Positions 2,557-5,229 of a stretch of DNA of 64,000 nucleotides are shown here, in pieces. Location of the stretch: positions 434,001-498,000 of the forward strand of contig NZ_MQVV01000012.1 of the NCBI RefSeq assembly GCF_002954355.1, given 5' to 3'. Position numbers and translations under genes: made by a program. Position 1 is the first letter of the stretch. The number at the start of each line of letters is the position of its first letter. The notes beneath the pieces are model-generated. The model did no database searches. It saw only the letters and a list, made by a program, of their open reading frames with translations, and had not been told where the DNA came from. This DNA is from Nonlabens tegetincola (GTDB lineage Bacteria > Bacteroidota > Bacteroidia > Flavobacteriales > Flavobacteriaceae).

Positions 2557-2590
2557 AAAAAAAAATGGTCTACCGTAAAGTAGACCATTT
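2557..2590 (-). terminator. trp attenuator: intrinsic terminator
   Basis: On the minus strand an 11-bp perfect stem (2580-2590 with 2563-2573) closes a 6-base loop and runs into nine Ts (2557-2565), ending about 10 bases before the trpE ATG. A rival pairing exists. Segment 2613-2621, just after the leader stop codon, is fully complementary to 2573-2581 (the loop plus the top of the stem), and 2609-2611 can also pair with 2584-2586 in the 5' arm. Only one of the two structures can form, as expected for an attenuator. Confidence 0.88.
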
Positions 2591-2612
2591 AAATTATTTA
2601 AACATACAGGTG

Positions 2613-2621
2613 ACTTTACGG
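2613..2621 (-). promoter_or_regulatory. trp antiterminator segment
   Basis: Reads CCGTAAAGT on the minus strand and pairs base for base with ACTTTACGG at 2573-2581. It begins one base after the leader peptide stop codon (2622-2624). A ribosome that finishes the leader would cover it and let the terminator form. A ribosome stalled on the Trp codons about 20 bases upstream would leave it free. The pairing is seen; the mechanism is inferred. Confidence 0.8.
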
Positions 2622-2672
2622 CTATTGAGCTGTATTATTCCACCACCAAGTATGAAGAGTTCTTGTAAACAT
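2622..2672 (-). CDS. trpL: trp operon leader peptide MFTRTLHTWWWNNTAQ
   Basis: A 16-residue reading frame with three Trp codons in a row (2640-2648), ending just before the antiterminator segment. Trp runs of this kind in a short frame before trpE are the hallmark of attenuation leader peptides. When charged tRNA-Trp is scarce, the ribosome should stop at these codons, the antiterminator forms, and trpE is transcribed. The ATG is only five bases after a promoter-like TAACTTTG, so the mRNA may begin almost at the start codon. No Shine-Dalgarno sequence is seen. Confidence 0.88.
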   Translation of the reverse strand: MFTRTLHTWWWNNTAQ

Positions 2673-2722: not shown

Positions 2723-4383
2723 TTAATATCCATCATCATGAATTCCGCTAACTGCTCTTCCAGAAGGGTCATTCATATTTTTAAATGCTTCATCCCATTC
2801 AAGAGCTACAGGTGTGGAACATGCAACAGACTTTAAACTAGGTACACAACTGGCAGCAGCGTCACTAGGAAAATGTGTGCTGAAAATATTACGGTAGTAG
2901 TATTCTTCTTTGTTTTGTGGTGGATTAATTTTAAATTTATAAGGAGCTGCTTCCATCATTTCATCAGTAACTTCCTTTTCAACCATTTCTTTAAGAGTAT
3001 CTATCCAGCTATAGCCTACACCATCACTAAATTGCTCTTTTTGTCGCCATGCTACACTTTTAGGAAGATAGTCTTCAAAGGCTTCTCTTAAAATATGCTT
3101 CTCCATTTTTCCATTACTGCACATCTTATCTTCTGGATTTAGTCTCATTGCAACATCCATAAATTCTTTATCTAGAAAAGGAACTCTTCCTTCGATTCCC
3201 CAAGCTGCAAGTGATTTATTTGCTCTTAAGTTATCATAAAGGTGTAAGGTGTCTAGTTTGCGAACTGTTTCTTTATGAAATTCTTCCGCATTTGGTGCCT
3301 TATGAAAGTAAAGATAACCACCGAAAATCTCGTCACTTCCTTCACCTGATAAAACCATTTTTATACCCATAGACTTAATCACTCTAGCTAATAAATACAT
3401 TGGTGTTGATGCTCTTACAGTTGTAACATCATATGTTTCTAAATAATAAATGACGTCTTTAATCGCATCTAACCCTTCTTGAATAGTGAAGTTTACCTCG
3501 TGGTGCACGGTTCCTATATGGTCTGCTACTACCTGTGCGGCTGCTAGATCTGGGCTACCTTTAAGTCCTATTGCAAAACTGTGTAGTTGAGGCCACCACG
3601 CATCGGCATGATCTCCCGTCTCTACTCTTCTAGATGCAAATTTCTTTGCGACTGCACTTACTAGAGAGCTATCTAAACCACCTGATAATAAAACACCATA
3701 AGGTACATCACTCATAAGATGACGTTTTACTGATTCTTCCATGGCCTTACGTAAGTCTGCAACTGAGCTTACATTTGATTTAACTGCATCATATTCTTTC
3801 CAATCTCTATCATACCATTTTGTGAAATCTTTATCTTCACTGTAATAGTAATGTCCTGGTGGGAAAGGTGAAATTTCGTTGCATGTTCCTTCCAAGGCTT
3901 TTAATTCACTAGCAACATAGAATTGACCTAGTTCGTCAGTTCCATAATATAAGGGTATTATTCCCTGATGATCTCTTGCACAAAGAAAAACATCTTTTTC
4001 ACTGTCATATAGTGCAAATCCATACATGCCTGTTAAATCATCTAAAAAGTCTACACCTTTTTCTTGGTATAAGGCTAGTATAACTTCACAGTCTGATTTT
4101 GTTTGAAACTCATAGTCATGGTATTGCTTTCTGATTTCTTGGTGGTTGTATATTTCACCGTTAACTGCAAGTACAACTTTTCCATCTGGACTATACAAGG
4201 GTTGTCCTCCCGATTGTGGATCAACAATAGTTAGTCTTTCGTGAGCAAGTATAGCTTTTTCACCACAATATATTCCAGACCAATCTGGACCACGATGTCT
4301 TAATTTTTTGATAGTTCTAATACTGATTGACGTTGTTCTTTGCTGTCTTTTTTAAGTTCAAAGACTCCTACTATTCCGCACAT
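2723..4383 (-). CDS. asnB: Asparagine synthase B (glutamine-hydrolysing), apparent frameshift at codon 27
   Basis: AsnB makes asparagine from aspartate, ATP and glutamine. The true start is the ATG at 4381-4383, because MCGIVGVFELKK carries the catalytic N-terminal Cys2 of the amidotransferase domain. This frame ends after about 27 codons at an A6 run (4304-4309), and the conserved continuation LRHRGPDWSG is in another frame. One more A restores a 553-residue protein, the usual length. The synthetase half has the PP-loop LLSGGLDSSL and SGEGSDEIFGG. The cause could be a sequencing error, a real mutation, or -1 slippage on the A run. An Asn-rich attenuator precedes it. Only 14 bases separate its stop from the trp promoter's TTG, so it has no terminator of its own. 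Confidence 0.9.
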
Positions 4384-4417: not shown

Positions 4418-4448
4418 AAAAAAAGGCCTACTATGAAGCAGGCCTTTT
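4418..4448 (-). terminator. asnB attenuator: intrinsic terminator
   Basis: A 9-bp perfect stem on the minus strand (4440-4448 with 4421-4429) closes a 10-base loop and runs into seven Ts (4418-4424), 34 bases before the asnB ATG. Segment 4471-4479 can pair with 4433-4441 (8 Watson-Crick pairs and one G-U), and after one mismatch 4467-4469 can pair with 4443-4445. This would open the 5' arm, the same geometry as in the trp attenuator. Confidence 0.82.
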
Positions 4449-4470
4449 GTAATATGTATAAATATCAAGT

Positions 4471-4479
4471 CTACTTCAT
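4471..4479 (-). promoter_or_regulatory. asnB antiterminator segment
   Basis: Reads ATGAAGTAG and pairs with CTGCTTCAT (4433-4441) in the loop and upper 5' arm of the terminator. It overlaps the leader stop codon (4476-4478), so a ribosome ending there would block it and favour termination. Confidence 0.72.
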
Positions 4480-4532
4480 CGCTTTCGCAATAAATTATTA
4501 TTAGAATTGATATTATTATTGTTTTTTAACAT
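4476..4532 (-). CDS. asnB leader peptide MLKNNNNINSNNNLLRKR
   Basis: An 18-residue frame with eight Asn codons placed between a consensus promoter and an intrinsic terminator, upstream of asparagine synthase. By analogy with amino-acid attenuators, low charged tRNA-Asn should stall the ribosome in the Asn runs, free the antiterminator and allow asnB to be read. The ATG follows TATCTTTG by only four bases, so the mRNA may be leaderless. The tail LLRKR is encoded by a part-copy of the 16-bp palindrome (TGCGAAAGCG). I know of no described Asn attenuator of this kind in this phylum, but I cannot search. Confidence 0.85.
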   Translation of the reverse strand: MLKNNNNINSNNNLLRKR

Positions 4533-4536
4533 GTGT

Positions 4537-4567
4537 CAAAGATAGAATAAAATTTTTAAAATCAAAA
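4537..4567 (-). promoter_or_regulatory. Predicted asnB promoter
   Basis: TATCTTTG (4537-4544) and TTTTG (4563-4567) are separated by 18 bases, a full match to the Bacteroidota consensus. The predicted start falls within a few bases of the leader ATG at 4532. Confidence 0.8.
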
Positions 4568-4584: not shown

Positions 4585-5229
4585 TTAATGTGAGCCACTT
4601 TTTTTAATTACCTCAGGCATCTTAGCAGCAAAACGATTGAATCTAGGAATAGAGATGTTTTGTATGTAACTATTGTTAGGATGTAATCGTGCGTAATCTT
4701 GATGATAATCTTCGGCTACCCAAAATTTTTGAAAAGCTTTTACTTCTGCTGCAACTTTGTAACCTTCTTTTGTTAAAGCTTCAATTTTATTTTGAATAAT
4801 CTGTTTTTGCTCGTCATTCTGATAAAAGATAATGCTACGATATGCTTTTCCAATATCAGGTCCTTGACCGTTAACTTGCTCAATATTCTGGGAAGCAAAA
4901 TAAACGTCAACTAGCGTTTTAAAACTAACTTTATTTGGGTCATAGATGATTTCATTTGCCTCTGCATGGTTGCCATGATTACGATAGGTTGGATTCTGCA
5001 TGGTACCGCCAGAATAACCAGAAATGGATTCACTAACACCTTGTACGTTTTCGTAGATTTCTTCTACACACCAAAAACATCCACTAGCAAAATAAGCTCT
5101 TTCCATCCCATCTTGTGCTGGGACTTCAACTGGAGTTGCATAGGTGATTTCTTGCTGTGTGATTTCTTTGGTTTCATTTCCACATGCTGTGTTTATTAAA
5201 ACCAAAAGTGTATACATTAAAAGTTTCAT
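4585..5229 (-). CDS. msrA: Peptide-methionine (S)-S-oxide reductase, lipoprotein form
   Basis: MsrA repairs oxidised methionine in proteins. The active-site motif GCFWC is at 50-54 with the catalytic Cys51, followed by the family block SISGYSGG and by EDYHQDY near the C-terminus. Residues 1-16, ending INTAC, form a lipoprotein signal with the lipidated Cys at 16, so this enzyme should act in the periplasm on a membrane anchor rather than in the cytoplasm. It stands alone between two terminator hairpins. A -7-like TAGTTTTG lies 14 bases upstream. Confidence 0.93.
   Translation of the reverse strand: MKLLMYTLLVLINTACGNETKEITQQEITYATPVEVPAQDGMERAYFASGCFWCVEEIYENVQGVSESISGYSGGTMQNPTYRNHGNHAEANEIIYDPNKVSFKTLVDVYFASQNIEQVNGQGPDIGKAYRSIIFYQNDEQKQIIQNKIEALTKEGYKVAAEVKAFQKFWVAEDYHQDYARLHPNNSYIQNISIPRFNRFAAKMPEVIKKSGSH

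Follow-up and report, generated by a model that had tools for sequence, protein, structure and literature searches.

An asparagine-codon leader peptide and predicted transcription attenuator in front of Nonlabens asnB, with Asn leaders also at asnA and gat loci of Flavobacteriaceae

The window, the whole 64 kb stretch of DNA analysed here, carries asnB, encoding a glutamine-hydrolysing asparagine synthase, between msrA (match over the cut-off, stop at 4585) and a trpE-like gene, which in NCBIfam matches anthranilate synthase component I best (417 bits, below the curated cut-off of 517.7). The asnB product of a relative (L010) matches asparagine synthase B (NF006949) with 930 bits. The features of the locus are listed below with the evidence for each. 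A1 is the alignment of 21 Nonlabens leader regions, and in the swap tests the arms of a helix were exchanged between genomes.

4563-4567, minus strand: -33 promoter element TTTTG (sequence)
4537-4544, minus strand: -7 promoter box TATCTTTG (sequence and the TAnnTTTG consensus in the part of PMC9723704 consulted)
4532, minus strand: predicted transcription start, the A of the leader ATG (from box position)
4476-4532, minus strand: leader frame MLKNNNNINSNNNLLRKR plus stop codon, 8 Asn in 18 codons (sequence)
4507-4514, minus strand: stem A 5' arm AATATCAA, within the leader frame (fold, pair counts on A1, swap test)
4475-4494, minus strand: hairpin B (protector), TTTATTGC-GAAA-GCGATGAA (fold, pair counts on A1, swap test)
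4471-4479, minus strand: antiterminator strand ATGAAGTAG, at the stop codon (sequence, pair counts, fold model)
4461-4468, minus strand: stem A 3' arm TTGATATT, 3' of the stop codon (fold, pair counts on A1, swap test)
4433-4441, minus strand: antiterminator partner CTGCTTCAT, spanning the loop of the terminator and the adjoining end of its 5' arm (sequence, fold model)
4418-4448, minus strand: intrinsic terminator, 12-bp stem and U tract (sequence, fold, RNAalifold, pair counts)
2723-4383, minus strand: asnB, for a glutamine-hydrolysing asparagine synthase (in this assembly the frame breaks off after codon 27)
2557-2672, minus strand: second attenuator, in the gap between asnB and the trpE-like gene, with leader MFTRTLHTWWWNNTAQ plus stop codon (2672-2622) and a terminator

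The asnB frame of the window breaks near 4300 (codon 28), beside an A run, and none of the 21 matches from other Nonlabens genomes contains an internal stop. The break is either an assembly error or a real change.

A full TTTTG-N18-TATCTTTG promoter had been claimed for this gap by the original prediction, and direct reading of the sequence locates it at 4567-4537 on the minus strand, with a spacer of 18 bases. For Flavobacterium psychrophilum, the passages of PMC9723704 drawn on here place the TAnnTTTG box at -12 to -5 relative to the transcription start and report leaderless mRNAs as 5.5% of those for 890 genes. Applied to the TATCTTTG box, this position puts +1 at the A of the leader ATG, and the asnB leader mRNA is thus probably leaderless, with a start predicted from the box. 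Across Nonlabens, a TAnnTTT(G/A) box lies 4-8 nt 5' of the leader ATG (20 of 21 loci by script; the distance at L016 was measured by eye, from its second ATG), from which an untranslated part of 0-4 nt is predicted.

The leader frame extends from an ATG at 4532-4530 to a TGA at 4478-4476 and holds the eight Asn codons in 18 that had been described, seven of them AAT and one AAC. Among ATG frames of 8-30 codons on both strands of the window, it alone reaches 8 Asn codons and an Asn share of 40%. A comparable frame arose in none of 20,000 dinucleotide shuffles of the 201-base msrA-asnB gap, and a weaker one (at least 6 Asn, 35%) in 4 of 20,000. The Asn-rich leader frame is beyond chance.

From the leader to the start of asnB the RNA is more stably structured than shuffled sequence: the region 4531-4381 folds with a stability z of -5.67, and 0 of 200 shuffles were equally stable. 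The terminator, AAAAGGCCTGCT-TCAT-AGTAGGCCTTTT, occupies 4448-4421, with a U tract reaching 4418. The predicted pairing of a stop-codon segment with the loop and arm of this terminator is borne out by ATGAAGTAG, which is complementary to CTGCTTCAT over 9 bp, including one G-U, and as read from the sequence the antiterminator and terminator are mutually exclusive by base pairing. Hairpin B includes the stop codon and masks part of the antiterminator strand. Stem A, hairpin B, the probable leaderless start and the gat and asnA leaders described below were all absent from the original prediction.

Among 23 Nonlabens genomes, asnB was found in 22 (E <= 1e-100), and an Asn leader with a terminator lies 5' of it in 21 of these 22 loci, as expected if the Asn codons are conserved in near relatives. 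The leaders have 15-18 codons, 6-8 of them Asn. The sole exception, L023 (G018), lacks both leader and terminator; its upstream gene differs (a 472-aa frame on the opposite strand) and its downstream trp leader is retained.

We counted pairs on A1 for a named structure consisting of stem A, hairpin B and the terminator. In total, 92.0% of its cells pair, with two-sided changes in 7 pairs (shuffled mean, 2.5; slid structures, 0-5), counts that are lowered by the one-codon offset of L020 and L024 in the alignment and that favour structures drawn from the same sequences, stem A and hairpin B having been named by eye and then counted. The terminator stem is paired in 98.8% of cells, and the 21 aligned loci have a 12-bp stem and U tract. 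RNAalifold on A1 recovered the terminator alone, and neither stem A nor hairpin B. The swap tests, a more independent check than the pair counts, were clear for stem A (own arms, -8.11 kcal/mol; swapped arms, -6.52) and for hairpin B (-5.83 and -4.54 kcal/mol), with 0 of 5000 permutations as good in either case. In the aligned sequences, stem A and hairpin B covary in Nonlabens. The antiterminator pairs in 99.2% of cells, but none of its pairs changes on both sides in the 21-sequence alignment, and exchanging its arms between genomes had no effect beyond chance (2140 of 5000 permutations). The proposed check for covarying stems in relatives was therefore positive for stem A and hairpin B but not, within the genus, for the antiterminator.

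The switch was modelled at the decision point by folding RNA that ended before the terminator 3' arm, with the ribosome footprint masked. For the window, a ribosome placed on any of the Asn codons gave an antiterminator probability of at least 0.85, reaching 0.97 for the last three; placed anywhere between codon 17 and the stop it gave 0.00, and RNA free of ribosomes gave 0.40. Means over the 21 Nonlabens loci were 0.89 on Asn codons, 0.16 without a ribosome (L015, at 0.82, departs from this) and 0.00 at the stop codon, a zero that is partly geometric because the antiterminator strand sits under the footprint there. The value on Asn codons exceeded that at the stop in 21 of 21 loci, and across four footprint sizes it stayed at 0.83-0.91 in the genus, against 0.00 at the stop. 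When the full-length RNA is folded at equilibrium, the terminator prevails in every case (0.96-0.97), so the switch has to be kinetic, decided while transcription is under way.

We infer the transcription start, the stalling, the termination efficiency and the dependence on Asn-tRNA from these features, and the events would run as follows. RNA polymerase would start at or beside the leader ATG, with a ribosome trailing it through the Asn-rich frame. With ample Asn-tRNA, the ribosome would reach the stop codon and cover the antiterminator strand, the terminator would form, and the transcript would end near 4418. With scarce Asn-tRNA, the ribosome would stall on the Asn codons and block stem A and hairpin B, and the free strand at the stop codon could pair with the terminator 5' arm and loop, letting the polymerase continue into asnB. 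If the leader were not translated, stem A and hairpin B would mostly mask the antiterminator strand and the terminator would form. Conservation, the covariation of stem A and hairpin B and the modelled switch support the reading of the original prediction, in which a stall in the Asn runs forms the antiterminator and allows asnB transcription. The locus very probably controls asnB by ribosome-mediated leader-peptide transcription attenuation in response to charged tRNA-Asn, and it probably restricts asparagine synthesis to times of low Asn-charged tRNA.

To place the Nonlabens leaders in the family, we used a sample of 159 Flavobacteriaceae genomes, of which 114 carry asnB (E <= 1e-150). Two of these are Nonlabens, both with the leader. 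In 17 of the remaining 112 loci, an Asn leader and a terminator precede asnB in a second RNA architecture (class 2); members include Luteirhabdus pelagi (L122), Thermobacterium salinum (L117) and a Flavobacteriaceae MAG (L096). No Asn leader with terminator was found in the other 95 upstream regions examined. The 112 regions were scored for Asn frames only (28), for Asn frames and terminators (80) or for Asn frames (4); by locus, L028-L135 were scored for Asn frames only, six of them being read fully, and L136-L215 for frames and terminators. The class 2 count includes L186 (G060), despite only 3 Asn, and L160 and L215, whose terminators were missed by the crude scan and read by eye. Asn-rich frames at L034 (G155), L073 and L208 (G136) were not counted, as no terminator was found there.

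In class 2, a CARAAACTTGT-like strand after the stop codon can pair with CARGTTTY in a terminator of the CCCGTCAAG..CTTGACGGG type. This antiterminator pairs in 99.3% of the cells of the class 2 alignment (A3, 19 sequences), and one of its pairs changes on both sides (A-U 9, G-C 7, G-U 2), the 3' side falling in the loop of the RNAalifold terminator. The two-sided change amounts to 7 cells (shuffled mean, 2.3; 7 cells reached in 3 of 500 shuffles), and it may partly reflect two related groups. The antiterminator swap test was positive (1 of 5000 permutations), and class 2 is the only class with both a two-sided antiterminator change and a positive swap test. A pairing between the 5'UTR and the post-stop region, ACAAGT-ACTTGT, is weakly supported (own, -4.97; swapped, -4.65; 141 of 5000 permutations). 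The modelled antiterminator means were 0.89 on Asn codons, 0.00 at the stop and 0.73 without a ribosome.

A model of the asnB leader (R1) also matched Asn-rich leaders (e.g., MTINNNNNNFNNPNF) before a small gene and gatA. R1 matches occurred in 64 of 299 genomes, and nine of the ten loci read are Asn leaders (three asnB, six gat); the tenth, L225, is not, and many matches beyond the loci read may be ordinary terminators. In the family sample, gatA occurs in 29 of the 159 genomes and gatB in the same 29. No genome has both asnB (E <= 1e-150) and gat, against 20.8 expected if the two were independent, a figure that ignores kinship. The operon order is gatC-gatA-gatB::aspS. The assignment of gatC relies on a weak match (TIGR00135, 22 bits; cut-off 47.1), and gatA, truncated where the locus ends, reaches 391.5 bits (cut-off 481.1). 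In gat genomes gatB occupies a frame of 1115-1123 aa, which at L258 (2127-5201) runs into AspRS, with matches to GatB_N, tRNA-synt_2 and GAD and 543 bits for aspS_bact. All 29 gat genomes have an AspRS match inside the long gatB frame and a separate second AspRS; the four asnB genomes tested have one AspRS each.

The GatB-AspRS fusion is possibly a one-chain transamidosome, forming Asn on tRNA-Asn. A narrow search of the literature gave no mention of such a fusion. According to the part of PMC4206432 consulted, Deinococcus and Thermus form Asn on tRNA-Asn by a second-AspRS route, and second AspRSs occur in 5 of 18 genera surveyed, all Deinococcus-Thermus; the gat genomes resemble these in having a second AspRS. 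AsnRS was found in 158 of the 159 genomes (all but G174), 157 of them over the cut-off. The U1-A72 pair of tRNA-Asn is present in 17 of 18 genomes read (the G134 prediction is offset); it is shared by asnB, asnA and gat genomes and therefore does not set the last of these apart.

An Asn leader and terminator precede gatC in 18 of the 29 gat genomes, and none was seen in the other 11 by frame scan and reading of the last 220 upstream bases. Three further gat Asn leaders lie outside the 159-genome sample (L221, L223 and L262). On the alignment of 20 gat leaders (A2), 96.3% of the named-structure cells and 92.9% of the antiterminator cells pair. In the named structure, 3 pairs change on both sides (shuffles, 1.9; 41 of 500); two-sided pairs of the antiterminator were no better than shuffles (455 of 500 reach the count), and both swap tests were null (2411 and 853 of 5000), so that covariation in the aligned gat sequences lends modest support. 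Modelled antiterminator means were 1.00 on Asn codons, 0.00 at the stop and 0.99 without a ribosome; compared with the no-ribosome value of 0.16 in Nonlabens, those of the gat class and class 2 lead us to predict a protector only for Nonlabens. With the smallest footprint, the stop-codon value rose to 0.36 (gat) and 0.27 (class 2), and the gap between Asn codons and stop exceeded 0.3 in 17 of 20 gat and 17 of 19 class 2 loci.

The third route to asparagine, asnA, is present in 9 of the 159 genomes, six of which are without asnB and gat. All nine asnA upstream regions were scored for Asn frames, and the three positive ones were read fully: L289 (G069), L290 (G051) and L288 (G028) have an Asn leader and terminator before asnA. 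At L290 two full leader-terminator units follow one another; at L288 a single full unit is accompanied by another Asn-bearing frame, which has a terminator and lacks an early stop. The upstream Asn-frame scan found no Asn leader at the other six loci. Ten of the 159 genomes are without asnB (E <= 1e-150), gatA or asnA at the thresholds used.

The place of the Nonlabens region, AT-rich and lying between msrA (stop at 4585) and asnB, would also suit a mere msrA terminator accompanied by an Asn-rich frame that AT-rich DNA produced by chance. Yet a promoter box stands between msrA and the leader and keeps its 4-8 nt from the leader ATG in relatives, the shuffles gave no such frame (0 of 20,000), and the leader is kept in 21 of 22 loci. 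The codons also argue against this origin: between the first and last Asn codon, the 60 leaders of A1-A3 contain 453 AAN codons, of which 370 are AAT and 83 AAC; AAA and AAG are absent. As the leaders are related, the 453 codons do not count as independent events, but the pattern nonetheless speaks for selection for Asn decoding over A-rich RNA. A chance frame beside an msrA terminator is therefore extremely improbable. If instead the peptide itself acted, as a nascent-peptide arrest sequence or a small protein, codon-specific stalling would not be needed, and a conserved frame that ends at the antiterminator strand would be in keeping with this. The peptide, however, varies in sequence and length outside its Asn codons (12-18 codons), in contrast to known arrest peptides, and we consider such a function exceedingly unlikely.

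A structured leader and terminator before an amino-acid gene would fit a riboswitch or T-box as well, with Asn or tRNA-Asn sensed directly and the frame incidental, and in a few species the gene for Asn-tRNA ligase has a T-box, according to the part of PMC2494555 consulted. The Rfam screens speak against this: Rfam 15 at the gathering threshold gave 0 matches in the window, T-box, riboswitch and leader families included, and scanning four loci permissively yielded eight matches, all of them below threshold and none a T-box. Among these, the gat locus L220 matched Phe_leader (38.8 bits) and Thr_leader (23 bits; cut-offs 55), and the asnB leader of L004 matched only STnc370, an unrelated sRNA family (30.8 bits; cut-off 54, E 0.49). 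With nothing at threshold, a T-box, riboswitch or known Rfam leader was rejected for the Asn attenuator. Moreover, the RNA around the frame differs among the two asnB classes and the gat class, and the Asn codons stay. Direct sensing by the RNA is thus very improbable.

A possible source of the Nonlabens attenuator lies next door. A WWW frame precedes the trpE-like gene in all 21 loci long enough to include this region (L004-L024; at L025 the contig stops inside asnB). The trp attenuator has the same layout as the Asn one, the same short box-ATG distance and a similar GGTCTAC..GTAGACC terminator, but Trp codons replace the Asn runs. R1 scores the trp-leader region at 49-50 bits in G000 (49), G017 and G022, the exact place having been read for G000. 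The Nonlabens Asn attenuator may have derived from this neighbour by codon change.

Judging from the sequences, the codons of the leaders correspond to what three unrelated enzyme systems (asnB, gat and asnA) make, and several RNA architectures sharing one codon logic suggest repeated origin or fast turnover. It is likely that the Asn attenuation system of Flavobacteriaceae tracks whichever Asn route is present, be it asnB, asnA or gatC-gatA-gatB::aspS with its GatB fused to a second AspRS as a probable one-chain transamidosome, with repeated origin or fast turnover suggested and the Nonlabens form coming, maybe, from a trp attenuator. If so, this is a natural experiment in which one signal, charged tRNA-Asn, stands before three unrelated enzyme systems. 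In the gat case, the attenuator would read Asn-tRNA-Asn, the direct product of the enzymes it controls, tying attenuation to tRNA-dependent amino-acid synthesis.

Leader-peptide attenuators are known for the trp, his, leu, thr and phe operons. The Asn system shares with these a frame of end-product codons, a stop-codon strand used by the antiterminator and, in Nonlabens, by a predicted protector, and a terminator before the gene; it differs in its Asn specificity, probable leaderless start and Flavobacteriaceae host. A two-codon T-box is known on a transamidation operon. T-box control of Asn genes likewise senses tRNA-Asn charging and governs Asn-tRNA or Asn-making genes, but there the RNA binds the tRNA directly, with no leader peptide. 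A 2010 survey, as far as its main text goes, describes leader-peptide systems as known only in Proteobacteria and Actinobacteria, adds Firmicutes, and mentions neither asparagine nor Bacteroidetes (PMC2965389). Strong clues for leader-peptide attenuation before amino-acid operons are reported for F. psychrophilum, of the same family, but the main text of that study has 0 occurrences of asparagine or asnB (PMC9723704).

The original prediction knew of no described Asn leader in Bacteroidota, and the searchable literature (abstracts and passages) likewise yielded no Asn leader peptide. The mechanism is known; Asn specificity, a probable leaderless leader and a spread over three routes were not found in that literature. 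If the reading is true, asparagine joins the amino acids with leader-peptide attenuation, and attenuation is at work in Bacteroidota, the ribosome probably beginning on leaderless RNA.

Order-level searches with models R2 and R3 covered 296 genomes each, with strict filters and an unstated share of Flavobacteriaceae. R2 matched five genomes, two of them with gat leaders (G156, already known, and L262/G561); its matches at L263, L264 and L265 have no gat leader. R3 matched G060 only. The gatC-like protein (L220, 1626-1892, and relatives) carries an Asn-rich stretch of its own (TNNNSFNNKGNN and similar), which may add sensitivity to Asn supply.
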